Of a stretch of DNA of 64,000 nt, positions 28,311-61,750 are shown piece by piece. This DNA is from Pegea sp. RAD2-039 (Eukaryota; Chordata; Thaliacea; Salpida; Salpidae): contig JAQGEQ010000314.1 in assembly GCA_034620365.1 (NCBI GenBank), positions 434,001 through 498,000 on the forward strand. The letters are read 5' to 3'. The stretch's first letter is position 1. Each line of letters starts with the position of its first letter. The position numbers and the translations under genes were made by a program. A model generated the notes under the pieces. The model searched no databases and was not told the origin of the DNA. It saw only the letters and a program-made list of their open reading frames with translations.

Positions 28311-31300
28311 ATGGCGATTGAAGTTTTCATTCCAGAAGAACCACAGTATGTAATTCTGTTTACTTCAGTTAGTCTAGCTATTGGAGGTAACTTTAAAAAT
28401 TTTTGTTTGTGTTTTAAATTTTACAAACTTTTTAAAGTAATTCTTAGTGTTAGTTTAAATTTAATATCTTATTTCAAACACAAAACCTGGTAATATTTTT
28501 CAGTTTTTGTAATAAGTTTATAGAAAATAGAAAATATTTATCATGAGTTATTTATTATAAAAGAAACATGTAATTTGGAAATAACCTTATAAAATATAAA
28601 GTAATTTATACAATATTTATTAACGTAATATAATATTTAAAAAGTAAAATACAATAACATGGAAAAAAACCTTTAATATAAGAAATATACTTTTAGAGAA
28701 TATTTATTTGTATTTTATTGAAATTATTTACTTACTTAGATTAATGATTAAATATAACTTTATCAAAACTATAAATTTATAAAAAGGGAAATATTTACTA
28801 AACAAACTGTCACTTTTTTATAATTTTATTTTATAAAACTATGAAAGATATATTTAAAATTAAACAATTTAGAAAACTAAAAACAAATAATCTTATCAAA
28901 TAATTATTAACTTATAAATCATTTGATATCTTCTAATTTTAAATTATTTTCAGCTTTCTGTAGAGTCTTACAGCCAATTTGGGCAGATTATGTGAAAGAA
29001 TGTAACCTACCTTCAATATTAAATGTTCATTACTCAGCAATACTTCAGATTATTTCTGTAATTTTGGGCACAATTTGTTATCAAGTGAAAGTAAATTAAA
29101 GTTTTAAACATTTTTAAATCGCGTCAATCGCGTCAATCGCGGAAGTAAAAGCTTTTTACAAGTGTTTGTTGGCTGATAAACTTTTTTGCTTATAAGCAGG
29201 AACTAATCAATCTTTTATATTTTTAATGATACTTAAACAATTACTAATTAATTTTTCGGTGATTATTTTCTACAGGCTTTACAGAGGTTCCTTGTATATT
29301 CTATCCAAACATCAATACTTCATTATATTTTCTTTCCAATTATTGTCTTTCAATCAGCTTTCTGTATCAACAAAACCGCTTACACCAGGTAACAAAACCA
29401 ATCTATAAAATCACGTGACTTTTCAATCTGTTTTTCAGAGCCATGTCAGAAGTCATATTTCTCGTGCTTCCAGCGTTCTTTGTGACGTTGACTCTTTCCG
29501 CTTTTGTATCTAGTCTCATTCCTGAAGTCAAAGAAGTTACTAATTGGGCAGAATTCGTTCTAATATGCGTCATATACGCGACTATTATGACGCCAACATC
29601 GCCTAGCGCTACTATAAATGTTCTTAGAGAAATCGGTTGGTAGTCACGTGATTTAAACTGTGATTTTGATGAATTATATTTTATAGGAGATATAAAAAAT
29701 ATAGGATCAGTTTTAGAAGCAGAATGTGTAGTTTGTAATTCACTTTCAATAGTTTTGTTTGATCTGTTGGTTGTTACACTCAGTACTACACTTGATGCTT
29801 CTACTTCAAACACTCGTAAGTTATTGACATTAATTTCAAGGTTCTTAAAATTCACTGAAGTACTTTACAACATTGTTGATGCTTTTAAAAGCCTTAGATG
29901 CTTGTTTTCAATTGAAGAATAATATTTTGTTTGTTCTTACATAACCAAGCTTTATTTATTCATCTATTTATTACAATAAATGTGAAGCAGGGTACCTGAA
30001 AAGAGCACCTCTCGCTAACACATATTCTCACAAATGTAATCTATAATAATACCTATAAAAAGAATTTTATGATTTCAACTTTAAAAATTAAATCAATAAA
30101 AACTTCAGTTTTAAGTCAGAATTATATTTTATTGACGCGGTTACAGAATCACAAGAAAAGTGTTTGCACAAAAAACTCATAAAATACAATTATTCGACAA
30201 AAAACGTCGTGACAACATAAAAAAAGCGATTTATAAATCAGTAACCTCATATAAACATCAACAACCTATATCTTGTCACAAAGATAAACTAAAGACCTAA
30301 AAAGTGCTAACAAAAACATATTCTCTTTCAGCCGCTGTTTTTATTCTACTGGTCGCTCGTTATCTGTTGTGTGGACCGCTTTTAGGATGGACATTTGCTG
30401 AGATAATCAGTTATTTTTTACAAAAAGTCTACTACGACGCGATTTGTGAATCAACTATTGTTTTGAGCAGCGTTTTTCTTCTTTTTTACATCGCTGAGAG
30501 TGTAAGTATTTTAAACATTTAGTAAACTATTGATTTGTATACGAAGTTTTTAATAGCTTGATACAAGTGCGCTTGCAGCTGTCGGAGTTTTTGGAATTTG
30601 TCTTAAGCCGTCATCATTTACTCCAGAGGTTTTTACTGCCAACACAATGTATGGTTTAGTTTCTACCTTTATTTAAAAATTGTAAAATCGGTTTGAGATA
30701 AAATGATCTTAATTATTAATTTATTTATTTACTTAACACGTGGCTGCGAGTGACAAATTCAACAGTTTTTATTGTGAACAAAAACCAAATATAATGAGCA
30801 AAAAGGTAATTGGAAGGTAACGCAATCTAAGATTTATATACAAAGAATACAAACACTAAAGAGCCCTAAATCATGCATCAAAAACTGTAAAATGACAAAA
30901 AAAAATAGAAGAAAGTGAGGAAGTTAGCAGTGTTACACATCACTTGATAAGGAAACTACTTAAACCGTGATTTTTAACAAAAATTGAAAAGATACGATGG
31001 ACTTTGATGTAGTGATGGAATCAGAAAAAGAATCCAAGCTTTGGTGACCTTATTAAACATATGTTACTCTACTGGGTCTTGTTGAAGTTGTTGGGCGGTT
31101 TAATTTTAAATGAAGAGCCTCTGAGAACGAATGAAAGACTGAATTTAAATTTTAAATGTATTTAAAAAGCGATGAGGATACAAAAATCAGAGTTTATAAG
31201 AAATAAAGTATTTGAACTAATTTCTTTTGTAGTATTTGGAATATGTTCAGTTATATTGTGACAACTTTTATCTACGTTGTGGCTGGGTTAACAGTTGCAG

Positions 31301-34300
31301 ACTCTTATTACTGTCTTACAATGACTGATGTTTTGTTTGTGTTGTTAGTATACATCACTTTGCCTGTAATCAGGTAACTTTTTATCAATTAAATTATTGA
31401 AAAAAAAAACTCCAAATTAATTTCTTGAAATTTTATTTTTCAGATTCTTTTCCTTGAGTACAGTTCTTAGTTTTTTCAAAAATAATCAGATTATTGAAAC
31501 GTCTGGAAGTATTTGGAAAAATATCTTTATTATGTCATGGGGCAGTTTGAAAGGAGCAGTGGGTCTCGGCCTAGCCCTGTACTTATCGCGAATGGGGAGG
31601 TATATTTCTCAAAGTTCTATCTCTTAATCACATTTAGAAGATTTGTTTAAGTTGAGTTTCGGGGTTTCCCCTAAAGAGAATTAATAACATTTAAAAAATA
31701 GGGTACCAAAAATGTTCCGAAAATTCAAATTGTTTTTAATGAAACTGATCCTAAAATTTCTTTTATTTCTTGTATTTAAAAGAGAAATATTTTATGTCTT
31801 TATGAATAGATTTTGAAATCAAGATAAATTTTTACTTAAAGGGCGAGGTTGAGTTACATTGACAATAAAAAGGAAATTTGAAGATTTAGTAGATATTAGA
31901 ACGTTTAGTCATTTATCGCTCAAAACTTGATACTATTTTCATATTTTAAAAGTTAAATAGAAACTGAAACTAAAACACTTTAAAAGTTTCAGTTCATTTT
32001 GTAGTAGACAGAGAAATCTAATCACTTCATCTTCTGTGTTTCAGAGATATGACATCTGATAACTATAAATCAAGTCTTGGTGATCTTGTTCTTTCAAAAG
32101 AAGGTTCATTTGCGTTTAGGATTTTTTTGAAATTACTAAATTGTTGACATATTATTCGAAATCATTTATTTAAAATAATAAATTTTATAAATTAATTATA
32201 TTTTATTTTAGATTTGGAAATTAAGAAAGCGTTTCTTAAGGTAACTCCTAATCGATTTTTGTTGAACAATTTTATATACTTGTTGAATTTCATCGAAAAT
32301 TAATCTTTTAAAAACTACTTCTTCTTAAGGTGGTCATTTATATTGTTGGTCAACTGCTTCTAACTTTGATTATCAACACTAACACTGTAGAAGCTGTCAC
32401 TCGATTTGCAGGTAAACTTATTTACAAACTTGTTACAATTTTTAAAACACAAAATGTGGACAGATTTTTCTTATTTTAATTTATCTAAAAACTCTCTATA
32501 TTTTCTAATTATGTTCCTATTGCATTTTCTTTTATTACATACTTTCTTATATTTTAACAAGGCTGATAAAGCGATAAAAACAAAGCTTGATACAATTGAA
32601 ATCTACAGATTTAACAGTAACTATCAACTAAGATAACAAACATATAACATCTGATTACACAATTTTAATAATTTCAGTTTTACTTATGCGGTGTAATACT
32701 CTTTTATCATATCTTTAAATACTTGGATATATAGCGATTATCACACCCGCTTAACACGTGAAAGGTCTCGGGTTCGAGCGCATATTTCAAACGATAGAAA
32801 GTTCATAAAAATCTGGTAGAAGGGTCTTTTATGATAAGACGTTTAGGAGATAAATTATGGATTTACATAATTTCTGTCCTGACTTACAACATAAATCAAC
32901 AATTAACGAAATAAATAAAGTCAAACTGAAATTTTAACATTTCTTAGGAATGCTGCGGATAACCGATACACAACACAACACAATGAGACAAGTTGTTGAT
33001 ACTCTGCGTCGTTGTAGAAGGATGTTTATCTGTATGCTCCAAAACGACTCCTTTCACTGTGGTGCTCATTGGAATATAGTCAGGAAGATGACAAAAGTAT
33101 CTGATCCATATGAGAAGTTTCTAGTTCAAGGTTGCCTCCTTTTTTCAAGATCTTTTTTCGGGAATAACTTTCAATTAAATGATCAGAAAAAGAAGATGAT
33201 GATGTAAGTTCTGTTGAGAATTTATCAGAAGCTTCTGTTTCATCAGATGAAGAGTATGATGAAGTTGATGAGAACAAGTTGTGGTCGGTTGCTAAGGTAA
33301 CTGATGTAGTTTTGATGAGTGGTATAGAGTTTAATATTTTGAATAGATGAGTAAAGAATACGGAACAAAATATGAGTATGATTATGATATGATGAGATTA
33401 CGAATCATCAAGACTTTGAAGGTAGATTTCTGATTCTATCATTTATTTTATATTAAAGATGAATCTTGTAACAGCTTGCGTATGGAAAACAATGCGATCT
33501 TGGCTTTATATCTAACTATGAGGCTAGGATCCTTATTCAAGCTGCAGATACTGCAAAGGCGAAAAGAGGACTGTGAGTCATATGATTTTAAAAGAAGAGT
33601 TTTAATAAGATAGCTACAATCAATACCCAATGCTCCAAGTCATCATCTTAGCCAAATCCTATAGCGATGGTGGCGGAAGATGACACCCGGAAACCGTAGA
33701 CGCGATTCTGCTTATTTGTTGCTGACGTAGACGACAGCAATAAAAACACTAAAATGACAATCGAAAGACAATCACAAAATAAAAATAAAAATATTTTTCA
33801 ACATTTTGTTGAGATTGAATTTTATTTTTTAATCTGAATATTTTGATTAACTTCTTGATCTACAGGTTTGTTGCTCCAAACCTACTACGAGAACGATGGT
33901 TAGTTTCACGAAGAACAAGTATGATGCAGATTAAACTGGATAAACTTTTAGAGAAGATATACAAACGTCGTCAATACAAGCACACGTTAGTCTTGTTGTG
34001 ATATTTTTCGATTATTCATTTTTACACAAATTCTTCTGATTATTAAAAAAATTTTTGCAGTTCAAAAAAGACAACAATTTTTTTCAAAATTGCTACAAAT
34101 TTTATGTTTCAAAACACCATGGATTTAATTGTCATGCTGAATACTGTGACATTATGGCTTTTTTACTCTAAAGGAAGTTTATACCGGGTAATTAAAAAAC
34201 TTTGAAAAACTTATTTAATATTTATCATGTAAAAAATTTCTATATTTAAATACTTTCTAATATCTTTTATTATTATTTTAGTTTATCGATGGACTATTTA

Positions 34301-37300
34301 TCGCAGCATATCTATTCGAGTTTGTGGTGACTGTAAGTCCATTTTTAGTCTGAAATTTTTAGTGTTTGATTAATAATTTGTAGGTTGTTGGTGTTGGTGT
34401 CATACAATATTTAAAAAGGGTTGAGAATTGGATGGATTTTGTAGTTTTATTATCAGCTATTGGTGACTTTGTTATCGTTAGTTTATATGATGTTGATGCT
34501 TCAACACCGTAAGTTAAATTTTTGATTGTAACTAATATTCTCTTTAAAACAAACTTTAGTAGTAATATGAAAAGTTTAATTAATATATTTAGAAAATGAA
34601 AAATTTTAAAATTAAAGTTTTGAATCTAAAACGTAAAGAATTCTGATAAAAAATTTTCTAACTTTGATATAAAAGAGGTTTAAATTATTCAACAAAGTTT
34701 TGATGCAATTATTTTTTAGGCGATCGAGTTTTTTTTACACAATTCATTTTATCCTCATCACCTTGAAGTTAATCAGGATTATTCGAGTTTTTATTATTAA
34801 AATCATTGAAATTATTATGGAAAAGTTAAACTCAAAGTACTTTAGTTTCTTCATTTTTATATCTAAGTTTAAAATGATATAAAAATCATCTAAACATTAA
34901 AATGATTCCATAAACTTATAGAATCTAATTCAATTGTAATAAATTTCAGAATCAAAAGTTGTTACAACGTTGGTAAAGGTTTTTTGAAAGGTGACGAAAA
35001 AGTCTGTGAAGTTATAAACACTCTTGTAAATGACCAACAAATCCAAAAGTTCATCTTGATGCGCTCTCGTCAAAATCGAATGCAAGTTGTAAAAGAGCTA
35101 GGTGAGTTATGATGACGTCATCAAAATGTGATGACGTCATTTGAAAAGTTTCAAATCTCACCGGTTTTAATTTGAATCCAGGAATCTTGCAACGGAATCA
35201 TCCACGCTTAGTAATCGGAATCAAGACAAAAAATGCGATTCGTAAAATTATCAACAAACTTTATGATTCACTTTATTCATTGAAATTAGGTAAGAAGCTT
35301 TTAGTGCTTTTAAAATGATTCTAAAATCTTTTATTTCCGATAGATGGCGTCTTAGATCATCATGAAGAAAGGCTTCTACTTAGAAAGCTGCAAGCAATTG
35401 TGAAGAATGTGAGTAACTCGCTGGAATCAGTTGATCCTGCTAGCATCCAAGAGCTCTTAGAGAATGTCAGATGGATGAAAGGTTAGTGATCTTTGTCTGA
35501 AAATCTTTTATAACTCTTTTGCGTCGATAGGAAATAAACAACTTCAAACATTTGTGATTGAAAACGCTGAACTGAAATCCTATGACCCAGAAGACAATTT
35601 AGTCCAAGAAGGGGACGCCCCAGATGGAATTTACATATTAGTCAATGGAATGACTCGAGTATGATGTTTGAATCTTATTCTAGATATTTAATCTTCAAAT
35701 TTTCGTTTAGACTACTCGGTTACCAGCAGGTAGACTTAGCTTACAAAAGTCAGTGCTTTCAAGCAAGAAAAACTCGTAAATAATCTGCAGAAGTTTCCAG
35801 AACTTTTTTTCAAATAATTTTTTAACAGGGTATCAACACAACGAAGCATTCAAATGGCTGAAGATGAAAACGAGAACTATTTAACTTCTGGTAATATAGT
35901 TGGTGAAATTGGTGTTATGACTGGCGTAAAACGAAGCGCGACTGTTACCTGCGAGACTCCAGTGACAGTGAATAGATTTCCATTTTTATTTAAATTATTG
36001 TTGCATAAAAAGTTTTTAAAATTAATCTTGATGAAATAAAGAAGAACTCAAGTAATTATGAAAGTCCACTTAATCATCAGGTGTACCATAGCTGGATTCA
36101 AACTACATCATCCACTATTAATTCGAACACCATAACCTTAATTAATTATCTTTTTTAGACCATTTTTCTTTCGACTAAAGATATGTGGAACGCGTTTGCA
36201 AAATTTCCAGACGTTAAAGAAATGGTTTGGAATGTGATTGCCATTCGGATAATTGCTCCTCTTTATCAAGGATCAAGAGGAACTCGGGTTAGTGAATTGA
36301 AACTTTATCAAATTGAAAAAAACTAATTTGTTGTCAACAGGTCATGACTAAAGAGAATTTAAACAATCATTTAGCAAAAGGTAAACTTGCAGAAAAGTAT
36401 GAAATTTGAGTAGATATATCTCATCAGCTGATTTAGAACAGAAAATCTGAAATAAAACCTATTTGGAGGTCACTGTCCCAGGTCCCCGACCCTATCACTA
36501 AAATGCGATCTAAATACTGGGAATAGTTCAGCGCACGCTGCTCTACACTATAATCAAAGCGTATGCGTTCAACCAACAAACCCAACAGCTCACCACCAAA
36601 TACTATTTCGCTTAGGATAATACTAATATAACTATGAGCCCGGGTGTAAGGGACCTACAACTTAGGGGGCCTTTTGTCACTATCATAACCTACTTCTTAA
36701 ACTTTTAACTTTCAGGGCATATTATCGAACTAACTGGCAATAGTAAGAGCTTCACAGTTAGTGAAAACGTTTCTGAAGTTTTTCTGGTTCACGGTTCTAT
36801 TAAGTGGTCAAATATGGAAGATGTTTTTTATGGCCCTTGCATACTGAAAGTTCATTTCGAAACGGTGGGTAATCTTTTGATATATACAAGCTTGTATTTA
36901 ATCATTGAGATAAATTAACTGATATTTTTTTTGATTTTGTTTCTCAGCTTTTCTTAGCACACTCAGAGTTTGCCATTTTGTTAGTCATTAATTCAAATAC
37001 TGAAAAATTTTCAGAGAAAGGTAAGTTCTGTCTTTTAATTTCATCTTTATTCTTAATCAATTTACACCTTGTTAAAACTCTTTAAATTTTTATTACTTTT
37101 GTTCAGTTTTTTTTTCAAACTTATACCAGTTCACAGAAATAACATTTAATTTAAAGAAAAGTAACAAAACAAACTTTAAAGTTTTGATACAGTGTAAAAG
37201 TGACTGATAGTAGCTTCATTATACAAATCGATTAATTTTTACACTGAACCATACTTAGTGAGTTAAGACTGATTGAAAACAAACAAAAAGTAAATGAGGT

Positions 37301-37850
37301 AAAAAAACCACATGGTCCATCATACACTCAATGATAATAATCTTTAAAAAGTTTATCTGTTTTGTTTATCTCCTTAAAATCAAAGTAAGAAAAGAGAGTT
37401 TATAAAATTGAAACGGAAGTTAAAAAAAGTAAAATACTTTTCACTTAAGATAAATTAAGTGACTGTAACGACGTCTTGATTTATAATTTGAATAAGTTAG
37501 TCTTTTACAAGTAGAATAAAAAATCAAACTTGATTTTACTGGTTGGTTTATGACGTTTATTCGTTGCACTCTGAGTTGACCTCTTATAGAATCAATAGAA
37601 TTTTGTTGTTGTTGTTACTTGTGAAAATTTGTGTTTCTAAATATGATGTTTAAATCAATTTTGAATAAAATGTAAATTTAGCAGAAGATTTTAAAATTGA
37701 TATTAGTTTTCTTCAGGAGTTTATAAATAAAATTCAAAATGAAATTTTCTAAAATTGAATAAACATTTTCAGTTAATAATTTGTTTTGTAGAATGGAAAA
37801 GCATGATGAAATTAGGAAGCAAAAAAAAGCTTAGAATGAAAGATATATAA
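28311..37850 (+). CDS. SLC9C-like: SLC9C-type (sperm NHE-like) exchanger, tandem copy 1
   Basis: Thirty-two exons close in frame to 1188 aa: 28270/28311-28386, 28954-29090, 29276-29388, 29439-29635, 29687-29815, 30332-30501, 30557-30648, 31233-31373, 31444-31599, 32045-32103, 32212-32240, 32330-32411, 32948-33130, 33187-33296, 33347-33421, 33475-33572, 33866-33985, 34061-34187, 34282-34332, 34384-34508, 34720-34836, 34950-35101, 35182-35289, 35344-35481, 35531-35658, 35711-35775, 35829-35967, 36159-36287, 36341-36380, 36716-36864, 36948-37020, 37792-37850. Order: NHE membrane domain (about 1-460; ILHYIFFPIIVFQSAF, SWGSLKGAVGLGLAL), acidic linker, voltage-sensor S1-S4 (about 656-796), CNBD (about 930-1080; GEIGVMTGVKRSATVTC). 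Known SLC9C1 exchanges Na+/H+ in the sperm flagellum under voltage and cAMP control. Odd: the usual Asp-Pro/Asn-Asp signatures read TSP and CNS here, and S4 (LKLIRIIRVFIIKIIE) has few charges. The start is uncertain: an in-frame TAA lies upstream of 28270. Confidence 0.9.
29950..30040 (-). mobile_element. 3'-tail fragment of resident LINE/SINE, reverse orientation, in SLC9C copy 1 intron
   Basis: Read on the minus strand it matches the 3' tail of the LINE copies at 50381-50460 (TTTGTGAGAATRTGTTAGCGAG, then GGTGCTC and CACATTTATTGTAATAAATA). Only the tail is present, so it could derive from the LINE or from the SINE that shares this tail. Confidence 0.75.
32730..32790 (+). pseudogene. tRNA-Val(AAC)-like relic or SINE head
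   Basis: The segment GCGATTATCACACCCGCTTA, continuing AACACGTGAAAGGTCTCG and GGTTCGAGC, resembles eukaryotic tRNA-Val(AAC) from the D-arm to the T-loop, with anticodon AAC and a B-box GGTTCGA. The acceptor stem and the T-stem do not pair, so it is not a functional tRNA. It lies in the intron of SLC9C copy 1 between 32411 and 32948. It may be a tRNA pseudogene or the head of a SINE whose tail has decayed. Confidence 0.6.
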
Positions 37851-40800
37851 AAATGATAAAGTTAAAAGACAAGGAACAACATTTGTGTAAGTTTCTTATT
37901 GATACTGGAAAACCTTCCAGTGAATACTTAAGATTTAAGCCATCAATAAACCAAATGATGAAAATACTTCGAGGCAAATTTATAAAATCAAAAATAATAA
38001 TAAATAAAGTTTATAAAATGCTGAACAAGGAATTGAAAAAAATCAGAATCCTAAGTGACTTATTATAGTTTATCAGCGGTTTAAGTCACATATATTTTCA
38101 CAAAGCAATTTAGTTATATTTAAGGACTCCTAACTACAAGAAAGACATAAAATTGATGTTATTTGATTATAGCTTATAGAAAGTTAATAAAAAAGCTTGT
38201 TTCTTAAGTAGAAGTTTTTCACGCTGTTAAAAAAATGGTTTAATGTTAAAGTTTTTAAAACGTAAAAAAATGCTTTTGTAATTAAGAGTGATTTTTTGTT
38301 GAATAATATAAATGAAGTTTGAATTTTCACTTAAAAACCGCTTTTAAAAATCATTTAAGAAATTTAGAAAATGCTTTAAATACTATAAGTGACAAAAACA
38401 TCAATTATCAGCAGATGCCAAAAAGTCTTGTTCATAAAAACTCTTTTTGCTAAACAAAAACGTTTTTAGTAACAAATCAATGCCAGCGATAAGATTTTAA
38501 GATAAAAACAACCAATAAAGTTGTAGAAAAAGCTCAAAAGTTCAATTCATGCAAAACAGTTTTACTTAATTACCAACAAAAGTATGAAAGCAAATTATCC
38601 AGAATTTCAGAATCTGACGTCTCTATTGAGTTTTGAATCAAACAACTGATCCCAAATTAAAAATCAGTTTAAATTGCATCCTTAAAACATTGATCCTTAT
38701 CTTCATCAGTACATCCGCCTTTTATTGATTATATTTCAAACAAACTTTACGTAAAGACTTTCAAATTTTATAGAATCAAAGCAAGTACAATGATAATATT
38801 AACAACGATAATAATAACTAGAATAATAATAAACATATACTGATATTCCATTTCTTATAATCTTGCTGTTGAAAGAAGCTATTGAAGACACAAGAGTTAT
38901 TGGAGTAGTGAAGACAACTCCTTAATAAACGTTATTTAGTTTGACGCTTTCATTGTGCTGATGACGTCATCAATTACCCTTTTTCACGTTCTCTTCTATT
39001 TATGAGTTTTAGTAACTTAGAGATAGTTTTTCACTTTTATTCATTTCATCTTCATTAGCGATGACGTCATCGTTTCTATGAAAATAATAATATTTTTTTT
39101 TGAGTTTTGGATTAATCTTCATCAGATATTATCAAAACTTAGTGGAGATTAATAAATTTTTTTTAGATTTTACAGTTTGAAAAAAGCTTTTTTAATTATG
39201 ATATTAGTAGCTTGCAATAACTTCAAACTATTTATCTAGAAACGAAATTAAATATATCTATTTTTAAAATATGACTCTCAATTCATTACAACTAATAGAA
39301 CCTGATTCAATAACTGTAACTAAACTTTAAGTTTCATAAAACTACTTTTTAACTTGGTTAGAATAATGCGTCAATAAATTATTGATTAGTTCTTTTATAA
39401 CATTAATTATTTAAGCTTTAAAAAAATCATTTATCAGTCATTCATACTGTTTTATATCTACTACACAAAAGAAAACTTCAAAATAATCTTTAATAGCTTT
39501 CAGCATTTAGTTTTTGTAAAACGCTGCGTAACAAATGAAATAAACCATTTTGATACTTTTAATTTTTTTATTCTAACCTTTATCAAATATTAAATTGATT
39601 CATAATATCCACAAATTAATTGACATTCAGTTTGATAATTTCTTTTCTATTAGTCCTTCCCTCAAGTTATATCAGCTCAGACGACACACATTACATCTTA
39701 ATAAGCCCATATCACCTGGTACATTGGTCAGAGCAAATTTTTTCTTATACCGAACAATTAGTACATGGAATCAGCTACCATCAGACATTGCCATGTCGAA
39801 GTCGCTCGCGTTGTTCAAGCAGAAGTTGAACCGTTATAATATTGCCAACATTGTCATTTCTAAACTGTGTTTTTTTCTCTTTTTTATATTATTAACATTT
39901 TATGTAATTGTTCACTGTTATATGCTTTGAGTGATATCGAAATACCATGTGTTACATTTTTTACTTTCTATATTTCTAACGTAATAGATGTTATTTGTGA
40001 GAATGTGTTAGCGAGAAGTGCTCTCTTCAGGCACCTTCCTTCGCATTTATTGTAATAAATAAATAAAATTAATCATGACTTTATACTCTCTAGTTTTGAC
40101 ATTTAGTTTACTAAACATACAGCTACAGATATAAAATAAACTTTTATAAGAAACAAAAAAATGCTAGCTTACAAAGATGTAGCACAATGATTGTTAAAAA
40201 ATAACAACACTGCTGAGGTATAAGTAAATATAAGTTATAAATCAAAGATAGAAATAAGTGAAAAAAAACTGCTAGCATTTTATATCACTTGTTAATAAAT
40301 TACTCAAACCACATTTTTAATACAATTTTATGAGTAGAACTTGTTTCTATACTTGGAATTTTATACTTTCTATGAAACTAAAAACTAAATGAATTTAAAC
40401 ATATAGATCCATATAGGTAAATATTTACTTGTTAATTCAGATTTTCTCCAACATTTTCTGAGTTGGTTTTTAAAACAACTTTAAATAGACGACAAATAAT
40501 TCATTTTTATAAAACACATTCGTTAAAAACACACTTTTTTTAAGTTTACTTGTTAAACTTTCATGTTTATTTTCAAGCAATTGTCAACCTTCACCCTTAG
40601 ATCATTTAATTTTCATGCAATTAGCTTTCAAGCAAATTACTGTTGATTTGTTGTTTAGAGAGCTTACAAAAGGCTATCGTTGATTTTGCTTTTTAGGATT
40701 ATATAATGAACTGCTTCGGAAGTGTCGACAAAACACTTAGAAATGACAAAAGAACTAGAAACAGTTTTTAGAGCTGTGTTTTCACCTGTGTTCATGGTAT

Positions 40801-41437
40801 TTCAGTTGAAGCAAATTATATAAAAAATTAGTGTTTTATAGAAATGTTTAAAATTTAAATCAGTCTTAATTTAAGAGAATAAAGTTGATATTAATAGTTA
40901 AAAAAAATTAAGATAAATTGAAGACTGTATTATTCAATCCGAATTTCAAAATTTAATCATATTTGACGAGATTAGAAAACTTTCGACAAAAATATTTACA
41001 GAAAATGTAAATTTTGGGGTTAATTTACAAAGTAGTTAAATTACAAATATATATTTTATGCTGTCAGCTTATGTATAAATAATAATGAAAGTATCTTTCC
41101 AGATACTACTATTACTATAGGACTGTTAGAGGTTTATTTTGTTCTAGATACTACTCTCATGAATTGGCTTGAAGTAGTGTGCGCTGAACTATCTATATTC
41201 TGAGGCGCTATTCGTTGACACTGTTCAGTGACATAAAATATTAGTTTATGACGTAACTATGGTTATAGTCACATAAAACTTCTTTCTACAATTTAGATAT
41301 AATTTTGATTATAAAGTTTCAATTAAAGCTAAGAGAAAATTAAAAAGTTTTCTTAAAAATGAAAAATAAAGTTGATTTATTCTGAAACAATAAAAGTTTC
41401 TATTTCATAAATCGCCTCGCGTCTTGCTACATCTAAA
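37851..41437. other. Spacer between the two SLC9C copies
   Basis: Mostly AT-rich DNA with one LINE fragment (39590-40070) and two TGACGTCA octamers (about 38961 and 39061). A 71-codon open frame (37853-38068, +) begins two bases after the SLC9C copy 1 stop; it is Lys/Ile-rich and has no recognisable homology, so I do not call it a gene. No other exon series was found. Confidence 0.55.
39590..40070 (+). mobile_element. 5'-truncated non-LTR retrotransposon (CR1/L2/Jockey type), 3' end
   Basis: Encodes the conserved C-terminus of the resident LINE ORF2 (39595-39930): FFSISPSLKLYQLRRHTLHL, then FFLYRTISTWNQLPSDIAMS and SLALFKQKLNRYNIANI. The 3' tail GAGAATGTGTTAGCGAG ends in an (ATAA)n microsatellite at about 40050-40070, typical of CR1/L2-like elements that lack a poly-A tail. 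It is more diverged than the copies at 49.4 and 51.0 kb. Confidence 0.85.
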
Positions 41438-44400
41438 ATGGATGAGTTTTGTGAAAAGCTTTTGATTACTAACGTGAGTTTTAACTCAAGTAAAGGTGAT
41501 CTAAGATTACTTCAATTTGGATTTAAAAATGAATTTGATGGAGTTCTTCTTCATTTTCTTTTCATCAGTCTCTTGATAGGAGGTTTGTGAGATCTTTTTA
41601 CTAGATAGTTTATCTTATATTGTTAAAAAAAGAATTTGTTTAAAGTGCTTGAGACTTATTTCTACATTAATCTTATTAAATGCTAGACTGAAATTTATTA
41701 AATAAATCTCCTTTCTTCAAATATTGTTGACAACTTTTAAGTTTTTTATTCTTGTTTCTGATATAGCTATCTCCAGAGCTATACTGAGAAAAATTGCGGT
41801 TATATTTGAAGATTCAGCGAGATTAGGACTTCTTAGATGTAATTATCTACTGGCTGTGTTACTTTTTGGAGTTATATTTTGTGTCATACACTTATATTAT
41901 CCGAGTGTAAGAAAAAAAAAACTTTTGAAAAATATATTTTTTTCTTATCTATAATTTTAAAATAAATATAAAAGCAATAAACTAAAACTGTACATCTTTA
42001 AACCCTAGGTTATTCCAGCCAATTTTATTCACTCCATCAACTCAACTCGACTCTATTCATTCATATCTTTATGCCAATGCTGATTTTAGAATCAGTCTTT
42101 TCTATAGACCAAGGAGTCTTTAGAAAGTGAGAAGTAGCTCTCTCATGTCTTTACAAGCATCAATTCTTTCTTTGACTACGCAGGAGCCTTTTAAGTGGGC
42201 TTTTACTGTCAACTAGTGAAATTTTGTTGGGTTTTGTGACAATTGGGTCTATCTTCCTTCTATCGGTTCGAGGTGTAGTTAAAGGGTTTGGAGTTGGTGA
42301 AATTTACGTCTGTTTCGCTTTTGGAGCGATTCTTAGCGTCACTGATCTAGAAGTTGTCGCTTTAACACTGAAAAAATCAGGTGAGTTGATGACGTCATAA
42401 TGAAAGTTGTGATGAATGACGCCATTCAGCTTTTTATTGTTTTCTTTAAAAATCAAATTGAAAATTATTAAATAAAACTTAGAATTAATTCATGATGCTT
42501 TATACTTCAAAATTTTTAATTAAAAAAAACTTGTTGTCAAAGTTCTAGCTAGTTATATGATTTTCAAAATAAGTTATCAGATATATATTCAAAAATAGAT
42601 AAATTTGCTTTATCTAAAACTGAACAGCAAATTTCTTAACGTTTTTCGCATAGTTTAATATTTGATTCAAAATATAATAGATTTGAAAGATATGATAAAA
42701 GATTACTACACCGTATATGTAAATTTGAAATGAAGAAAATAGTTTATTCTTATCCTGTAGTTGCTGGTGAACACAGTTATTAATCATTTTATTAACAATT
42801 ATCATATAAAGGAAATCAAAAATATATTGGAGAGATTACAGAAGGGCAAGAGTTATTAAACAAGGGGTTTTCAATTTGTATCTTTACTTTATTCTACAAC
42901 TTATTCGTATCAGAGCTAAGTAGTACGGAATTTACAGGTTTGAAATTATTAGGTAATTAACAAATAAAATAATTAAGAAATCTTCTGCAGCTAGTAACGT
43001 GGCTATCTTGTTGTTGATGGAGCTTTTTGTTGCACCTTTCATAGGCTACATACTCGGAAAAATTACTAGTTTTACATTAGGGATAATTTATTCAGACAAT
43101 TTAATGCAAATTATCTTTATCATTAGTTTTTTGTACACAACTTACTATGTTTGCTATATTGTGAGTACCACATGATTATTAAGATTACTTTAATAACTTT
43201 ATAACTTAGATTGGATCTAGTGGTGTAGTTGGAATAGCTATTTATGGATTAAATCTTGACCACACTGCTATTGTAGCCCCTGTACAAAAGCTAGTTGTCA
43301 AGTAAGTTAAATTTTTAGTGTTCTATCAACTAAACCTTTCCGCAGTTTTTCAGCTTTGCTTACTCAAACTGCTAGTATGGTAATATATGCAATTGCTGGG
43401 TTTCTATTTGTCAACAATATTACAGTTATTCAAGTCACTGATGTATTTCTAATCATCTTCATCTACTTAACAATACTAGCAGTCAGGTTCTTATCTATTT
43501 CTTATCGTAGTTAGTTCTTCATTTTCTTATTTTAGGGGATTCACCATCCTTGTACTTCTTCCATTCTTCAGAAAGTTAAAGATTGATTTTTCTTGGAGGC
43601 ATTTGGTGACTATCACCTGGGGAGGAGTACGGAAATCTGTGTCTCTTCTTCTTGTCATCTTCTTCTACTTACGAACTCAGTCAGAAGCTTTTTTTTTAAC
43701 TATTTATAAATTAAACTTTTTTATTTTTTTATTCATTGGTTTTAGAGTCAAATAATTTAGTAGAAAGAATTTATAATTTTTTTCATCAAATTTTATTCAG
43801 TGAATTGAGATTTGGATACAATTTAAAGTATGAAGAATCAGCAGAAAAACCAACTGAAAAACGTAAGCAGACTTATTCAAGATTCAACAGAAATAATTTG
43901 ATAAACTTTATATATTTACTTTAAGAATGTTTTTTTAATAATTTAATAAATAATATAAAAGTTCAAATTGATTTAAATTTATCAACAGATTATATTGCTT
44001 CTGATGAATTTGCTCAGACCTTACAGAAGGTATGAAATAAAACTTGTAATTATTTCTTTATTCTAATCTAGTAGTAACTAATTTGTTTTATAAAATTCCT
44101 GAGCAAAATTACTAACTGATCGACTTATTTCAAATAAATATTAAAATATCCAATTGCTTTTAGATTCTCATTTATGTAATTGGAGTTGTGATTCTAACAA
44201 ATTTGATTAATGAAACAACTACTGAGATTATGATGAGGAAAATTGGTAAGAAAACTTCTCAAAAACCAGTTCGAAAATTACTTTGAAATATATACTTGAA
44301 CAGGAATGTCTCAAGTAACTGATACACAAATGAACACAATGTCCAAGGCACTCATCCAATTAAGGGCCAATGTCCAATCAGTAATTTCAAACATGCAAAA

Positions 44401-47400
44401 CGATGCATTTTTCGCTGACGCTCGTTGGTCAGTTGTTGTCACGACAACAAAAATACAAAATCCTTATAACAGTTTTCAAAGATCGGTAAGATACTTGTTT
44501 GCGAGCTACAGCTGTTTAGAAGTTTAATTTTGGTTTTCAGGGATCTACTGTAGAACCAAATATAATTAAAGCTACAACAACTTTCCGGAATATAGCATCG
44601 ACAATTACAAACAGAGTTTCTTCTTTTGGTAGTATTGGTCATCAAAAAAGTCTGATACTTTTTAGAAAACAGTTTGAAGAAGCCCGAATCAGAGTAATAA
44701 AAGCTTTGAAAGTAATTATTCATCTAAAAGTAATTTTCTTGCCGTCGATTTTTTAATATTATTTATTTTAAAGGCTTCTTACGATCGGCAGCATAGGGAT
44801 GGATTGCTAACTGTACCAGAGGCCAGAGCACTGGTCAGTATTACGGATTATGCTGCTGGAGTTAAGGGACTGTAAGTGGACAAAACATACTTTTATAGAA
44901 TTAATTTATAAAGTTTAGTCATCTAAACATCTTAACTACAACAAATATCAAAATTAAAATCGTTAAAATTAATTTAAAAAAGCCCTGATTATGTAAGTCA
45001 TAAAAGACCCTAGAAAGTCCCAAGGGAAAAAAGGGCTTGGTTCTGCTTATAGATGGTCCAGAAACATGGGTCTTCTTTAGAGGCGACAGCGACACAAAGC
45101 ATCAAAAGAATCTGCAAATATTTTGGATGTTATAACTCAATTTTTGTTGTTAAGATCACAACACAAAAGCAGAAATTCATGAAAATAAAACTTGTTTTGA
45201 ATTTTTCAGGTATTTATCAGTAAACGATATCAACAAATTCTTTCAAATAAAAGGTGTCCTTATTCTTATGATCAAAAAACTAAATGATTTGATGTATGGC
45301 AAGAAAACCTCTAACCTTGTCCCTCCAAAGTAAATTCAATTTCACTTTTAAAGCTTTACTGCAAACTAATTTACATAAAATCTGATGTTTGTTGCTTTTG
45401 GTTTGATTAAATTGTTGTTTTTCAAGTGGAAGGTTTAGAAGACAGTTATTTAAATGGGTTAACTCAGACAGATTTGAGATCATTATGCAAATGATTATTG
45501 TATCAAATACTGTTCCAATAATTCTGGATTTAACTGCTAAAGATACTTGGAATGCTGCAACGACTTGGTATCTTGTACTCAACGTACGTTTAATAATTTT
45601 CAATTCTTATAAGTTTCATTTTAATTTTCATCCAAAATATTTTAAATAAAAACAAAATCTAACCATTGATAGTCAAAATTTAAAAAGCTCGTAATAAGAA
45701 ATTAACAAATAAAGGTTTTGTGGTTTCATCTTCTTTTATTTTTTCAGATTTTAAACATTATTTACATCTGTATTTACATGATTGAGTTCCTTTTAAAAGT
45801 GAGTTTTTCATAAATTCATTGAATAAACTGATTTGATCAATTTGAATGCTTGAAAATTTTAAATAAATTCACGAGTGATTTGTAGGTTATTGGTTTAGGA
45901 ACTATACAGTATATTAAGATTCGTTGGAACCAATTTGATGTCCTTATATTGATCTTAGCTTTGAGTGAAATTATTGCGGACACAGTGATGAAAGAAACAA
46001 GTGGAACTGGGTAGAAATTATTGATCAGCTGGTAGCTGATGACTTTATTATGTTAATTGTAGATCAGAAGTTTTAAAATTTGGTAAAAGTACCAAAGTGA
46101 TTCGAACTTTAAGAGCAACTCGACTTTTACGACTTTCAAAAACTGGATTTCCCAGGATTTCAAATATTTTAAACAGATATTTGAAAAAAAGGTTTTTAGG
46201 AAATTGTAAAGTTTTCATCTTTTACTTTTGTATCATAAAATAGAGTGAACTTTGGATTTAATATTGGAAAAGGTTTCTTGTTTGGTGAAAATGAAATTGT
46301 GAAGTTAATAAAATCGATATCAACTAATGAAGGTGTTCAGAGCAAGATGGTTCGGTTATCGGAAAGGAATCGAGAGGAAGTAACTGACAAATTAAGTTAG
46401 TTGTTCGATCCAAAATGGATTTCTAACTTTTTTGAAAATGATTTTTTTTCTGATTTACTTTTAATTAAAATTTCTTTCAAAAACTTAATTTTTTATTTTG
46501 AATTAAAAATAAATTTTTGGAAATATTTTTCATTCAACTAATTTTTTGTCATTAAATTTGAAATGATACTTTTACAGATCAACTACAAATTGATTACAAT
46601 CATGTCTGTGTTCGAGTCCGTACTAAAAATGCTATTCGTCTAATCCTAAACCACCTCTGGCAAAAAGTCAACAAACTCGTATCCGGTTAGCTCTTCAGTA
46701 AATTCAGACTCTTTCTGATATGATCTTTGATCTTCAGAGGGAAAACTCAGTGAGTATGAAAGTAGTTTGCTCCACAGAGCAATTAAAAAGCAGATGAAAC
46801 AAGAATCTTCCTTGTCTCTACATCTTCATCCCAGATCTGATGATCTTATGATCCAACACATCTCATGGATAAAAGGTCAATCATTACTTTTTCATCACTT
46901 ATGACGTCACACAGCTGTTGTAGGTAACCGACAGATGACGTCATTCTTCTCGACTCGCACCCTAACGCGTAACTATGACTTCAACGAACGAATACTGCAA
47001 GATGGAGATGCTTGTGATGGAATCTTTATCATTACAAGCGGAATGGTTCAAGTAAATTATCTTACTCATCACTACTTGACTTCAATCAATGTTTTTGTAG
47101 CTGATTGGTGATCTAGATGGTCACGTGGGTCACTTACGTCATCATCCAATTCTCATTAGCAGCGAAGATATGTAAGTAAAGTAATTTGAGAGGTTAAAAC
47201 TATCAACTGTTCTCTGTTTAGTCACACATCTACCTCAGCTATTAACTACTTGGGTCCTGGTACTGTTTTGGAAGAGCTGAGATTCCTGATCAAGTCTACG
47301 AGGAGCTTGACAGCACTTTGTAAAACTGCAGTAAAGGTTTAGAACACTTTGATTTAAATACTGAATCCTGAATCTGTGATGTGATTCAGACGGTTTTTTT

Positions 47401-48493
47401 GCCTGAAGAAGCATTATTGGAATGCTTTGAAAAGTTTCCTAATACTGAGAAGAATATGTGGAAGTCTTTAGCTGTAAGGATCGCTCTTCCCTTGTACCTC
47501 ATAAGTCCTAAATATGAAGTGAGATTCGTCTGTTTCAAAATTGTTTAAAAATTAAATTATTTTCAAACTGACAGAATATGAAAGTTGAAGCATTAGCTCT
47601 TCGTATAATTGATGGTAAGTTTGATCTTCATCATTACTCCAATCTCTATTTGATCTTCTTCTAGGTTATGTTATTGAATTAACATCTGAAAGACCCACAT
47701 TAAATATTGATCAAACTGTTAGTGAGATTGTAATCATTCATGGAAAAGTTGAATCAAAACAAAATGAAAGTATTCTAACTGGTCCACTTATAGTACCGCA
47801 AGAACTGTCTGAGGTAAGCTTCATGAAATCATCTTGTTGCCACTAGATGGAGCTAATCACGATTTTGTTTAGGTCACTTTGCATTCAGGAAAATTTGCAA
47901 TTATCTTGATTATTCTTCATCGCCTAAATGTCGGTCAAATGATTGATCGAGAAGCTATGAGTAAGTTTGTTTGGATTAAAAAACGTTTTTTTTTATAAAT
48001 AAATGAATATAATAGTAATCAGTGAACGATTTTAAAATGTTGTTAGCAAAAATACAAACTGAAAACTCGAAATTTCGGTCCAATTAGGTTATTAAGTAAT
48101 GAAAACAACCAAAGGTCTAATAATATCATAAAAGGAACCCAATTTTCTCATTTACTTTCGACAGCTTTTTTCGCTAGTAGATTTCTCAACGTATCTCCAG
48201 ATGCTGATCCTTAGTGTTGTCCTGGTACTTAGCAACAAGAAAATGATTTCCCAAAAATGTCCACCTTACCTCTTATCGTCTCTTTACCAGTTTTCTCTTA
48301 TGGTTGGCCCACAAGGGATTGACTTCCGGGACTGTAGATGGCTTTTTTATTAAATGTCCAGATGAAGCTATTTTCATGGTCGTTTAAATGGTCAGTGTAA
48401 AATTGTTCGCTAAAAATAGAATTTGTTTTAGATACAGAATCAGACAGTGAATCAAATGGAAGTGAAAATGAATCAAATCTTAGTTTAAAGTAA
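41438..48493 (+). CDS. SLC9C-like: SLC9C-type (sperm NHE-like) exchanger, tandem copy 2
   Basis: About 30 exons, roughly 1240 aa: 41438-41582, 41767-41904, 42009-42126, 42184-42380, 42812-42937, 42991-43160, 43210-43301, 43346-43486, 43536-~43679, ~43746-43862, 43989-44029, 44164-44245, 44304-44485, 44541-44711, 44774-44871, 45210-45329, 45427-45583, 45748-45798, 45886-46010, 46063-46191, 46244-46395, 46578-46685, 46738-46875, 46924-47051, 47101-47171, 47222-47336, 47390-47518, 47575-47614, 47665-47813, 47873-47960, 48432-48493. Exchanger domain: SVTDLEVVA keeps the TM4-type Asp, WGGVRKSVSL keeps the Arg, but EGQELLNKGFSI has Asn-Lys where Asn-Asp is usual. S4 is strong: KVIRTLRATRLLRLSK, a basic residue every third position. 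The CNBD cassette is degenerate (EELRFLIKSTRSLTALC) but keeps an Arg. It ends in an acidic Ser/Glu/Asn tail. The join between 43679 and 43746 does not close with a strong splice pair (a weak acceptor at 43767 would fit). Many exon lengths equal those of copy 1, showing tandem duplication. Confidence 0.88.
47840..47853 (+). promoter_or_regulatory. CTCF-like motif in an SLC9C copy 2 intron
   Basis: CCACTAGATGGAGC in the short intron between 47813 and 47873 resembles the CTCF core. Single match, by eye only. Confidence 0.25.
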
Positions 48494-50466: not shown

Positions 50467-52323
50467 TACGTTAAATAACTTCTTTCAAATTTATTATTTC
50501 ATTTTTAAATTTTGATAAACAAATGTATGTTGTCATCTCACTGCTAAAACTTAATTGGTAGATTAGTGGAAATAAATATATACTTTCATGATAAATGTAT
50601 TGATAAGAATTTTTTTTATACCTACGTGTTATAACAAAGTTTTAATCACTTTCATTTGGTTTAAATCATGCCATGAAAATATTAAAGTTTTTATATTTCA
50701 TCTGAAGTTAAAGATTATATGATTTATATCAAAAGTATCTATTAACTTTTATTTTTATATATTTTGTGTTTAGTGTAATAATAAAACTATTTTCCTTTAA
50801 ACTCAATTAAAATAATCTGTGTCTTGGTACCGAGTTGCAAATATCAATTTTTGAAAGTAATTTTTGAAATCATTAAATTGAAAATTTTATTGTTAAAATA
50901 CACGAAAAGTAAAATCTACAATTGGAATTACATCTAATTAACATCCTCAAATTCACACGCCTCAAATTCATAAGCCAGCTGCCAACTTCAGCAACCAATA
51001 CTACATCAATGGATCTATTCTTGAACGAGTATCCTCAGTCATAGACCTCGGCATTACTCTGACATTTGACTTCAAATGGCACAGTTATGTTTCCAGAATC
51101 TTTGGAAAATCTATCAAGCTTGTCCACCTCATCATAAAGACTTTTAATTCTAAAGATCCATGGTTTTACGTCAACCTTTTCAAACTGTACATACGCCCTA
51201 TTCTTGAATACAATGTCAGTGTATGGATGCCATATCAAGTTGGTGATATCAGAAAAATCGAATCTGTTCAGGCAACATTTACGAGATTGGTTTGCAGGAA
51301 ACTTAATATCAAATACGAGAGTTATAAGCATCGTCTCAGCTTCTTCAATCTAGATACTTTGGAAATCCGAAGAATTAAATACGACCTTATTCTGATTTTT
51401 AAAATTATTCACAACCTAATTGATCTTCAGTTTGATGACTTTTTCTCCATTAGTCCCTCCCTCAAGTTATATCAACTTAGAAGACATAAATTACATCTTA
51501 ATAAGCCCACTCCACCAGCTACGTTAACCAGATTAAGTTTTTTCTCATACCGCACAATCAGTACATGGAACAATCTGCCATCAGAGATTGTCATGTCAAA
51601 ATCACTTATGCTGTTCAAGAAAAAGCTGAATTGTTATAATATCGCCAACATTGCCATTTCTAAACTGTGAATTTTTCTCTTTTACAATACTATGATTCTG
51701 TGCAATTCTTCATTGTCATATGCTTTTTCGTTTACACGTCAAATCGATCTAATTTGTGAGAATGTGTGTTAGCGAGAGGTGCTCTCCTTAGGCACCCTCC
51801 TTCACATTTATTGTAATAAATAAATAAATAAATAATTACGTGAAATAACTTCTATCAAATTTATTATTTCATTTTTAAATTTTGATAAACAAATGTATGT
51901 TGTCATCTCACTGCTAAAACTTAATTGGTAGATTAGTGGAAATAAATATATACTTTCGTGATAAATGTATTGATAAGAATTTTTTTTATACCTACGTGTT
52001 ATAACAAAGTTTTAATCACTTTCATTTGGTTTAAATCATGCCATGAAAATATTAAAGTTTTTATATTTCATCTGAAGTTAAAGATTATATGATTTATATC
52101 AAAAGTATCTATTAATTTTTATTTTTATATCTTTTGTGTTTAGTGTAATAATCAAACTATTTTCCTTTAAACTCAATTAAAATAATCTGTGTCTTGGTAC
52201 CGAGTTGCAAATATTAATTTTTGAAAGTAATTTTTAAATTCATTAAATTGAAAATTTTATTGTTAAAATACACGAAAAGTAAAATCTACAATTGGAATTA
52301 CATCTAATTAACATCCTCAAATT
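49598..52323 (+). repeat. 1374-bp direct tandem duplication (LINE tail plus 3' flank)
   Basis: The unit running from the LINE segment AGCCAGCTGCCAACTTCAGC through its tail and about 490 bp of flank, to AACATCCTCAAATTC, is repeated with a constant offset of 1374 bp (for example open frames at 49853 and 51227). Identity is about 98-99% by eye. The junction at about 50954-50972 has CCTCAAATTCA next to a short imperfect filler. It is DNA-level duplication, because non-LINE flank is included. Confidence 0.9.
50970..51833 (+). mobile_element. Truncated LINE, copy 2 of tandem pair
   Basis: Same element as the copy at 49400-50466 but beginning at the duplication boundary, so the YADD box is missing. 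It has TGG where copy 1 carries a stop, so the reading frame runs through the conserved C-terminal domain to the stop at 51670. The 3' tail ends in (AATA)n near 51833. Confidence 0.9.
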
Positions 52324-53675
52324 CTTGCTGCTCACTAAAACTACTCATTTATATGAATTGTAAATGATGTCACAATTTAATGATGTCAATTAAAATGATC
52401 TGTGTCTTTAACTTTAATAATTATTATTTACTTTAATTTTTAATAATATTTTTAATTAATTCAAAATCTAAACATTTTTATGTAAATGTAAAATTACAAG
52501 TATAATGTTAATTTTGAAATAACAATTTGCTCTTTAAATATTAGAAATATAAAACATCATTTTTTAGTTTTAAATAAAAATTAGATTCACGGTTTTTAAG
52601 ATAAAAATATTTGTCAAATTGAACTCTAAGTTGATTTTGAAATTATGTTCGATGTTTGTTCGGAAATTTGTTTAAAAATTAATTCAGAATGATTCCAAAA
52701 TTATAAAAACAAAATGTAAATTCAAGTTACTTTTAATTTACTTTTAATACAATTATATTTTCAATTTAATTAACATGAAGAATTTGAATAGCTAAATCAG
52801 AATTTTAAAGTTTGTTTTTAAACCATTATATTATTTCATAGATTTATAAAAGTATTTGTAATTTCACGAAACTATTCAGTAAATCATCAACTTATTTTCT
52901 TCACGTTTTTACTTAAATAGTTATTGGATTGATTCAACTTCCTATCTTTGTGGATAAAATAGTTCCTTACCAAACCTTTTGTGCCTTAAAATTAATTAGT
53001 TGTTTAAATTGAGAGCTCTTCTTAATTTTCTTTTTAAGTTTTAGAAAATTTTTGTTTGAAAAATAAATCTTAATCTAAATGAATGTTACAAATACTATTA
53101 GAGTTTTGTTTTTATAAATTAAGTCTTTTATTTGAAATCTAAGAGCAGAAAACTAACAAATGGTAAACTATATTAGAGTTGAATAATTGACTAAAATTTA
53201 TTTCAGTTTGTAATTAGTCTTTTAAAGGTCAAAAAAATTACTTGTTTTGATAAAAATATTAATTCACAAAATTTTAATTCTAAATTTGTATATTTAGTTT
53301 ATTAACTCTCTTTTAATTTTGTGCAAATAATTTTAAAACCCTTCTTTTATCTGACTAAAGGGTGGTTATTTAGTTTAAAATTACAATTTAAGTAATTATA
53401 AGTTTTGGTAACTTTACAATCATGTGTGAAATTATTATGTTTCCTCTAAGCTTAAATCTTTATTATTTAAAGTCAAAAAAGTTTCTTGATTCAAAGCGCA
53501 TTAATTTTTAGAGTTTTTTTGAAGATATATTTCAATTATTTAATTTCCTGTAGTTTTTTTTTAATTTTAAATAAAACAATTGCTGTAGGTGTAAAAACTT
53601 AAACTAATCTGATTTCAATTTCAGTTTTGTTTTAAGTGCTTTAACTGAAAACAATAATATAAGTTGTATTTAAAA
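52324..53675. other. AT-rich GPCR 5' flank
   Basis: Extremely AT-rich with no repeat match or exon that I can identify. It should contain the promoter of the downstream receptor. An acceptor-like TTTCAATTTCAG ends at about 53624, 51 bases before the ATG. Confidence 0.5.
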
Positions 53676-61742: not shown

Positions 61743-61750
61743 ATTAATTA

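Follow-up and report, generated by a model that had tools for sequence, protein, structure and literature searches.

What might a protein of the Na+/H+ exchanger type be kept for when residues of its ion site have been replaced? The question is raised by two adjacent genes of the SLC9C type in a stretch of 64,000 nucleotides (here called the window) from the salp Pegea sp. RAD2-039 (GenBank assembly GCA_034620365.1, contig JAQGEQ010000314.1, positions 434,001 to 498,000 of the forward strand). Sea urchin SLC9C1 (Strongylocentrotus purpuratus; PDB 8otq and others), which is described as a voltage- and cAMP-gated exchanger (PMC10620092, PMC6052114), has the same architecture as the products of both genes, an exchanger followed by a voltage-sensor domain (VSD) and a cyclic-nucleotide-binding domain (CNBD), and is matched by both products over most of its own length. 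Judging from sequence, we think it somewhat probable that both are non-exchanging sensor proteins, with the family of the second gene (copy 2) kept as a voltage sensor and the first (copy 1) serving as a cAMP modulator or partner.

Two SLC9C paralogues and their ion sites

Both genes were rebuilt by hand, using splice sites and phases. The model of copy 1 (28311..37020, plus strand) has 31 exons, encodes 1167 amino acids and is stop-free throughout; a last, C-terminal exon past 37020 was not found in this hand-built model. At 28263-28269, 5' of its start codon, lies an acceptor-like TTTGCAG that may point to an additional 5' exon or to trans-splicing. Copy 2 (41438..48493, plus strand) also has 31 exons and ends with a TAA stop at 48491-48493. 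All 60 introns across both models are of the GT..AG type, the introns being small (medians 81.5 and 57.5 in the two gene models), and the proteins matched sea urchin SLC9C1 in PDB with E values of 2.4e-119 (copy 1) and 9.5e-135 (copy 2), over most of the length of the sea urchin protein and in two stretches. An earlier note on this DNA, which had described two adjacent SLC9C-type genes with nine matching exon lengths, was right on both points. When the splice pattern of other copy-2 copies is used, the match extends to 17 lengths in the same order (113, 197, 170, 92, 141, 82, 98, 120, 51, 125, 152, 108, 138, 128, 129, 40 and 149, the last nine being those of the note), which we read as a sign of shared ancestry of copies 1 and 2. 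The idea that there are only two genes did not hold, as copy 2 is one of many copies of an amplified family: its CNBD exons were found at no fewer than 23 places, the window included, on 18 contigs (genome search, 38 of 205 candidates scored).

The exchanger domain of the NHE fold is present in both copies, with PF00999 scores of 71.2 bits in copy 1 and 83.5 in the copy-2 consensus (cut-off 26.2), compared with 225.8 in sea urchin SLC9C1 and 99 in the SLC9C2 of Cebus. It is followed in both by an S1-S4 voltage-sensor-like domain that aligns with S1-S4 of the sea urchin protein, and by a C-terminal CNBD that matches the SLC9C1 CNBD chain 9ydf and scores 41.1 bits with PF00027 in copy 1 and in the copy-2 consensus (cut-off 27.5). 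Copy 2 has a close relative in P0122, a protein of 917 residues from a JGI contig of 2,832 bp; the two are 90% identical along 74% of the query and end alike. P0122 covers copy 2 exons 7-31, crossing 24 intron positions without interruption, and is therefore probably the transcript of a related species. PF00520 was detected in P0122, and not in copy 1, the copy-2 consensus or sea urchin P0002.

In a FastTree phylogeny of 100 sequences, copies 1 and 2 stood together (support 0.952), and the pair joined five ascidian SLC9C sequences with support 1.0; a 41-taxon IQ-TREE analysis gave the same grouping with values of 86 and 100, as read from rerooted labels. Copies 1 and 2 are old paralogues that group with tunicate SLC9C in these trees. 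Copy 1 has a tip branch 1.7-2.0 substitutions per site in length. It is 24.3% identical to the copy-2 consensus, and both share 31-36% identity with four ascidian SLC9C proteins. Although the ascidian proteins (Ciona, Styela, Phallusia and Clavelina) are the closest relatives in the tree, all five aligned, two of them from Ciona, keep the Asn-Asp pair of the ion site, unlike copies 1 and 2.

To read the ion site, with residues numbered after sea urchin SLC9C1 (PMC10620092), we aligned both copies with 100 other SLC9C sequences (P0002-P0101), drawn from 120 listed of 171 matches. This set includes near-duplicates and fragments, holds no recognised mammalian SLC9C1 and, having been gathered by similarity to an intact exchanger, is biased to intact sites; the counts leave out Cebus SLC9C2 (P0001) and three bacterial proteins. 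Among the 96 of 100 sequences readable at columns 209, 233, 237 and 238, position 238 is Asp in 95 and Glu in one (P0083), but Asn in copy 1 and Lys in copy 2. Asp209 (96 of 96) is Ser in copy 1 and retained in copy 2; Glu233 (96 of 96) is retained in copy 1 and Gln in copy 2; and Asn237 (89 of 96) is Cys in copy 1 and retained in copy 2. Arg399 is found in all 100 other sequences and in both copies, and position 431, which is Arg in 89 and Lys in 11 of the 100, is Lys in copy 1 and Arg in copy 2. Copy 1 has therefore lost D209 and D238, and copy 2 E233 and D238. Sea urchin SLC9C1 has D209, E233, N237, D238 and R431, and its D238A mutant is reported to give peak currents below wild type, as with empty liposomes (PMC10620092).

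The replacements lie in corresponding exons, all on the plus strand. In copy 1, exon 4 (29439..29635) has T-S-P instead of T-D-P, exon 5 (29687..29815) reads EAECVVCNSLSIV, with Cys-Asn at 237-238 and Glu233 retained, and exon 9 (31444..31599) reads WGSLKGAV, with Arg431 changed to Lys. In copy 2, exon 4 (42184..42380) has T-D-L, Asp209 being retained and Pro210 changed to Leu; exon 5 (42812..42937) reads EGQELLNKGFSI, with Glu233 changed to Gln, Ser234 to Glu and Asp238 to Lys beside the retained Asn237; and exon 9 (43536..43679) reads WGGVRKSV. The Asn-Asp motif of CPA1 exchangers is accordingly Cys-Asn in copy 1 and Asn-Lys in copy 2, the latter (LLNKGFS) in five of five copy-2 copies read, as the search for the family found the ion-site exon at four further places beyond the window. 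The alignment agrees with the earlier note that neither copy has the Asp and that copy 1 has T-S-P and a Lys for Arg. In copy 1, as a correction, Cys-Asn aligns with Asn-Asp without a gap nearby and the Asn stands at the Asp position. The note's claim that copy 2 keeps both T-D-P and the Arg was right as to Arg431 and T-D and wrong as to the Pro, and it had passed over E233Q and S234E. As a separate observation, the seven SLC9C sequences without Asn237 are ray-finned fish by label (P0052, P0058, P0060, P0073, P0077, P0083 and P0098); position 238 is Glu in P0083 (Osmerus) and Asp in the other six.

We considered whether an intact site might lie elsewhere. Alignment with the 100 SLC9C sequences did not restore one, and a motif scan of the three plus-strand frames of 28-49 kb gave no plausible alternative exon with Asn-Asp. 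One candidate, IMKVVMNDAIQLF at 42397, lies inside copy 2 intron 4, has no preceding EGE and looks like chance. A genome search with Clavelina SLC9C, made exon by exon with 37 of 114 candidates scored, found no third, intact SLC9C type; it matched copy 1, whose exons appeared only in contig C374, the copy-2 copies, and ordinary NHEs on contigs C83 and C52. A PF00999 genome search matched contigs C83, C52, C29 and C34 and neither SLC9C gene of the window, which indicates that divergent, intron-rich genes can be missed in this way. Three ordinary NHEs of the same genome keep Asn-Asp (LNDAV on C83, LLNDGV on C52 and ILNDAV on C29; the match on C34 stops short of the ion site), and the loss is therefore not genome-wide.

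Voltage sensor, CNBD and the distribution of constraint

The two copies differ most clearly in the voltage sensor, where the earlier note's contrast of a full S4 in copy 2 and a weak one in copy 1 proved accurate. The VSD exons of copy 2 (45427..46191, plus strand; S1 45427-45583, S2 45748-45798, S3 45886-46010, S4 46063-46191) keep all seven basic S4 positions examined (K797, K800, R803, R806, R809, R812 and K815). Of the countercharges, N691, Y743, E746 and D767 are kept, E698 is changed to Asp and D777 to Glu; the Asp at 698 in S1 is also present in ascidian SLC9C. By contrast, the S4 exon of copy 1 (34720..34836, plus strand) has lost the four outer basic positions and keeps three of seven, as K/R/R at 809/812/815; position 698 is Phe, and copy 1 taken alone does not show the S4-type pattern of regular basic residues with countercharges that copy 2 has. 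The charge-transfer centre residues Y743, E746 and D767 are kept in both copies.

Both CNBDs retain, by sequence, the Glu and Arg of the phosphate-binding cassette that mark cyclic-nucleotide binding. The cassette of copy 1, VGEIGVMTGVKRSATV, is intact (GE...R) in exons 25-28 (35531..36287, plus strand), and the good cassette that the earlier note had seen there is real. The 'degenerate CNBD' that it ascribed to copy 2 was overstated and is partly a peculiarity of the window copy, whose CNBD exons (46924..47518, plus strand) have VLEEL at a place that reads Gly-Glu in 14 of the 18 readable copies. The copy-2 consensus cassette is VLGELRFLIKSTRSLTA; among 19 aligned copies, Glu and Arg are present in 18 of the 18 that are readable, and the Gly is kept in 14, replaced by Glu in three (the window, C378 and one C377 copy) and by Asp in one. 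P0122 has Gly-Glu. Since copy 2 keeps Glu and Arg, cAMP sensing is not clearly divided between the copies. The proposal of divided sensing is supported for voltage only, with the VSD kept in copy 2 and eroded in copy 1; for cAMP, both CNBDs keep the key residues and evolve slowly.

To quantify where selection has acted, we divided the branch length of each domain by that of the rest of the tree, on a fixed topology and with 30 column bootstraps. The exchanger rate was 0.207 (0.153-0.254) in copy 1, 0.175 (0.135-0.207) in copy 2, 0.260 in Cebus SLC9C2 and 0.012 in the mean ascidian tip. For the VSD, the values were 0.154 (0.108-0.218), 0.026 (0.014-0.039), 0.092 and 0.011, respectively, a six-fold contrast between copies 1 and 2, although such long branches are prone to saturation. 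The CNBD rates were 0.049 (0.029-0.066) in copy 1, 0.070 (0.042-0.099) in copy 2, 0.043 in Cebus SLC9C2 and 0.013 in the mean ascidian tip, and the intervals of copies 1 and 2 overlap.

These branch lengths agree with a direct comparison of the copy-2 consensus with P0122. Differences were found at 19 of 111 exchanger sites (transmembrane helices 8-12, TM8-12), at 2 of 93 S1-S4 sites (5 of 156 with linkers), at 8 of 129 sites in ICH5-7, the link between VSD and CNBD, and at 9 of 149 in the CNBD; the two S4 sequences are identical. In 16 disjoint pairs of other SLC9C sequences of 80-95% identity, the pooled differences were 74 of 1813 in the exchanger and 188 of 1489 in S1-S4 (Fisher odds ratio 24, p 1.9e-8, for copy 2 and P0122 against these pairs). 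The exchanger/VSD ratio was 7.96 for copy 2 with P0122, and the largest among 36 other pairs was 1.63 (2/114 vs 1/93); two high ratios among 41 pairs (3.40 and 4.11) both involved P0084, a fragment without PF00999, and were left out. Copy 2 inverts the usual pattern of constraint: other SLC9C proteins conserve the exchanger more than the VSD, whereas copy 2 conserves the VSD more than the exchanger.

Possible functions and alternatives

The earlier note had suggested, as one of two possibilities, that the proteins are non-transporting voltage and cyclic-nucleotide sensors. This reading, a prediction from the residues and rates described above, gains support from the ion-site losses in both copies, the fast exchangers and the near-fixed VSD of copy 2. 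A single tunicate SLC9C would have been the ancestor of both genes. Both proteins would lack canonical Na+/H+ exchange, with the exchanger half serving as a membrane scaffold. Hyperpolarisation would move the S4 of copy 2, and this movement would act on an intracellular partner and not on the exchanger, soluble adenylyl cyclase (sAC) being the likeliest such partner. Copy 1, with most of its outer S4 charge gone, would be a modulator or partner whose response to cAMP runs through its CNBD. In its narrower form, that copy 2 is an S4 sensor on a dead exchanger signalling to a partner such as sAC, and that the whole SLC9C complement of the animal is without proton exchange, the idea is one we hold only tentatively. 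Coupling of copy 2 to sAC is suggested by analogy, and sperm as the site of expression is our inference.

The genome holds the catalytic core of a soluble adenylyl cyclase (E 8.5e-79 to Adenylate cyclase type 10, PDB 4oya). Searches with PF15149 (CatSper beta) and PF15049 (the TMEM217 family) gave no match, but control searches matched nowhere either, which makes these negatives uninformative. Mouse TMEM217 is reported to bind SLC9C1 through its VSD, and SLC9C1 and sAC to be lost without TMEM217 (PMC12557800); sea urchin SLC9C1 and sAC have been reported to associate (PMC12867704).

Several observations weigh against the reading of both proteins as non-exchanging sensors. Part of the site architecture stays, as both copies retain R399 and copy 2 also retains D209 and R431. 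Thirteen of the 19 exchanger changes between copy 2 and P0122 swap one hydrophobic residue for another, and the exchanger is therefore still constrained to fold. That comparison is of one pair and of TM8-12 only in the exchanger, and the C-terminal part, with 17 of 93 sites different, is as variable as the exchanger; constraint on copy 1 comes from long-branch estimates on a single copy 1 sequence. ICH5-7 evolves fast (0.162 in copy 2, close to its own exchanger, and 0.139 in copy 1), which lends no support to a closely conserved path from S4 to a partner and lowers our confidence slightly, although in copy 2 this part differs from P0122 at only 8 of 129 sites. The proposed coupling to sAC, in turn, rests on likeness to mouse and sea urchin.

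The same retained residues could point to altered transport, in which Lys238 of copy 2 or Asn238 of copy 1 forms part of a changed site with another substrate or stoichiometry. Both copies also score above the PF00999 cut-off, and alternative transport has been suggested for the mammalian TS and IC forms (PMC10049371). We nevertheless regard this as unlikely: selection should constrain a newly acquired transport function, but the exchanger is the fastest part of both copies relative to other SLC9C (with ICH5-7 close to it in copy 2), and in the comparison with P0122 it is more variable than the VSD. The other possibility raised by the earlier note, a heteromer with copy 2 as the voltage-sensing and copy 1 as the cAMP-sensing subunit, would fit the adjacent genes, the VSD kept in one copy and eroded in the other, and the lower point estimate of the copy 1 CNBD rate; SLC9C1 itself is thought to be a homodimer (PMC10620092). 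It seems improbable, as the copy 2 CNBD is not clearly worse than that of copy 1, dosage may be very unequal with copy 2 being multi-copy, and no canonical ion site would be rebuilt when neither subunit has Asp238. That the S1-S4 domain of copy 2 conducts, as a voltage-gated proton or ion leak, appears very improbable; its S1 Asp698 also occurs in ascidians with an intact exchanger site, and no residue seen therefore points to a new pore.

Decay under relaxed selection alone, with the copy-2 family an amplifying repeat turning to pseudogenes and copy 1 a fast relic, is a further reading that we judge improbable. Many copy-2 units hold only exons 22-30 within the stretches read, and some partial copies contain stops. 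In the window, exon 3 of copy 2 (42009..42126, plus strand) has a 5-bp repeat insertion near 42035-42045 that is absent from the C378, C174, C179 and C354 copies; with the usual splice it shifts the frame to a stop at residue 120, and with the donor moved by 2 nt the frame is open. The insertion could be an assembly error, or the window copy itself may be decaying; given the insertion and its differences from the consensus, it is probably not the best representative of the family. In exons 1-21 it has 7 nonsynonymous and 5 synonymous changes from the consensus, compared with 3/6 in C174, 5/7 in C378, 7/5 in C179 and 8/5 in C354. As dN/dS-like ratios, which here are naive counts on few changes, these give 0.14 for C174, with the remaining four near-full copies at 0.21-0.47. 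Over exons 22-30, 19 copies differ from the consensus by 107 nonsynonymous and 82 synonymous changes, a per-site ratio of 0.37 that counts shared changes more than once, and unique changes only (73 and 43) give 0.48. All of these ratios are below 1, the copy-2 consensus has the S4 of P0122 and nearly its whole VSD, and copy 1 is open across 31 exons despite its long tip branch, which argue against decay.

Loss of the ion-site motif has precedent in mammals. Mammalian SLC9C1 (NHE10, sNHE) is described as having TS in place of ND and as having lost three of four outer S4 charges (PMC6052114), and mammalian SLC9C2 (NHE11) as having IC (PMC10049371). Compared by published description, mammalian SLC9C1 has likewise lost the ion-site pair, but with other replacement residues, and the S4 is complete in copy 2. 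Cebus SLC9C2 resembles copy 1 in having R431K, three of seven basic S4 positions and similar rates (exchanger and VSD fast, CNBD slow); it differs in keeping D209 and in its lineage, which is independent, since copies 1 and 2 belong with the tunicates in the tree. A ctenophore sNHE has also been described as having a degraded VSD (PMC6660944). Our searches of open-licence PMC papers turned up no work on the ion site of tunicate SLC9C. As far as we have seen, what is new here is the loss of the ion site in each SLC9C gene read of an invertebrate chordate, the inverted constraint, the splitting of the voltage sensor between paralogues, and the amplification.

Mouse sperm without SLC9C1 are reported to be immotile with unchanged bulk pH (PMC10620092, PMC6052114), and to have no full-length sAC, with motility rescued by cAMP (PMC12867704, PMC6660944). 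Signalling from voltage to cAMP without transport has a natural test in a separate lineage that has lost the same site and conserves the VSD more strongly than the exchanger. If our reading is correct, the sensor half of SLC9C would have a function separable from pH, as has been suspected for mammalian SLC9C1.

The copy-2 family and its surroundings

Part of a sensor gene has been amplified together with a G-protein-coupled receptor (GPCR) gene in tandem units. The unit of about 10.4 kb, which repeats in contig C217, comprises copy 2 exons 22-30 (46488..48377, plus strand, in the window) and a stretch with the GPCR gene (51832..58957, plus strand; open reading frame 55186-58257). The GPCR gene, which is also found in C217, is intronless and encodes five low-density lipoprotein receptor class A repeats (PF00057) and a rhodopsin-type seven-transmembrane domain (7tm_1). 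A second GPCR stretch lies farther along the window contig, where the 19.6 kb read contain no copy-2 exons.

Thirteen of the 16 copy-2 contigs with a size shown are 16-48 kb long. The C378, C179 and C354 copies lack exon 1 and begin at exon 2; their common 5' flank is found in the window at 60926..61629 (plus strand, 97.3-97.6% identical), next to two nearly identical tandem pieces of exon 2 of copy 2 that include some intron (61599..61848, plus strand, 94% and 98% identical DNA). The C174 copy has exon 1, and its upstream sequence is like that of window copy 2 (98.4% over 700 bp). An older relative of copy 2 on contig C71 (557900-561223; L029), with exons 88-98% identical, passes from exons 12-14 to exon 21, and VSD exons 15-20 had no match at that locus.

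Open frames at 39577-39930, 49391-50296 and 50942-51670 resemble, by eye, the end of a non-long-terminal-repeat reverse transcriptase; those at 49790-50293 and 50942-51667 had no Pfam match at E 0.01. Outside the tunicates, a EukProt record with the label Nk52, presumably the ichthyosporean Chromosphaera perkinsii, contains P0061, which resembles SLC9C and carries all three domains (exchanger, VSD and CNBD). If that is its source, VSD-bearing SLC9C would not be confined to Metazoa, contrary to what was found in PMC6660944.

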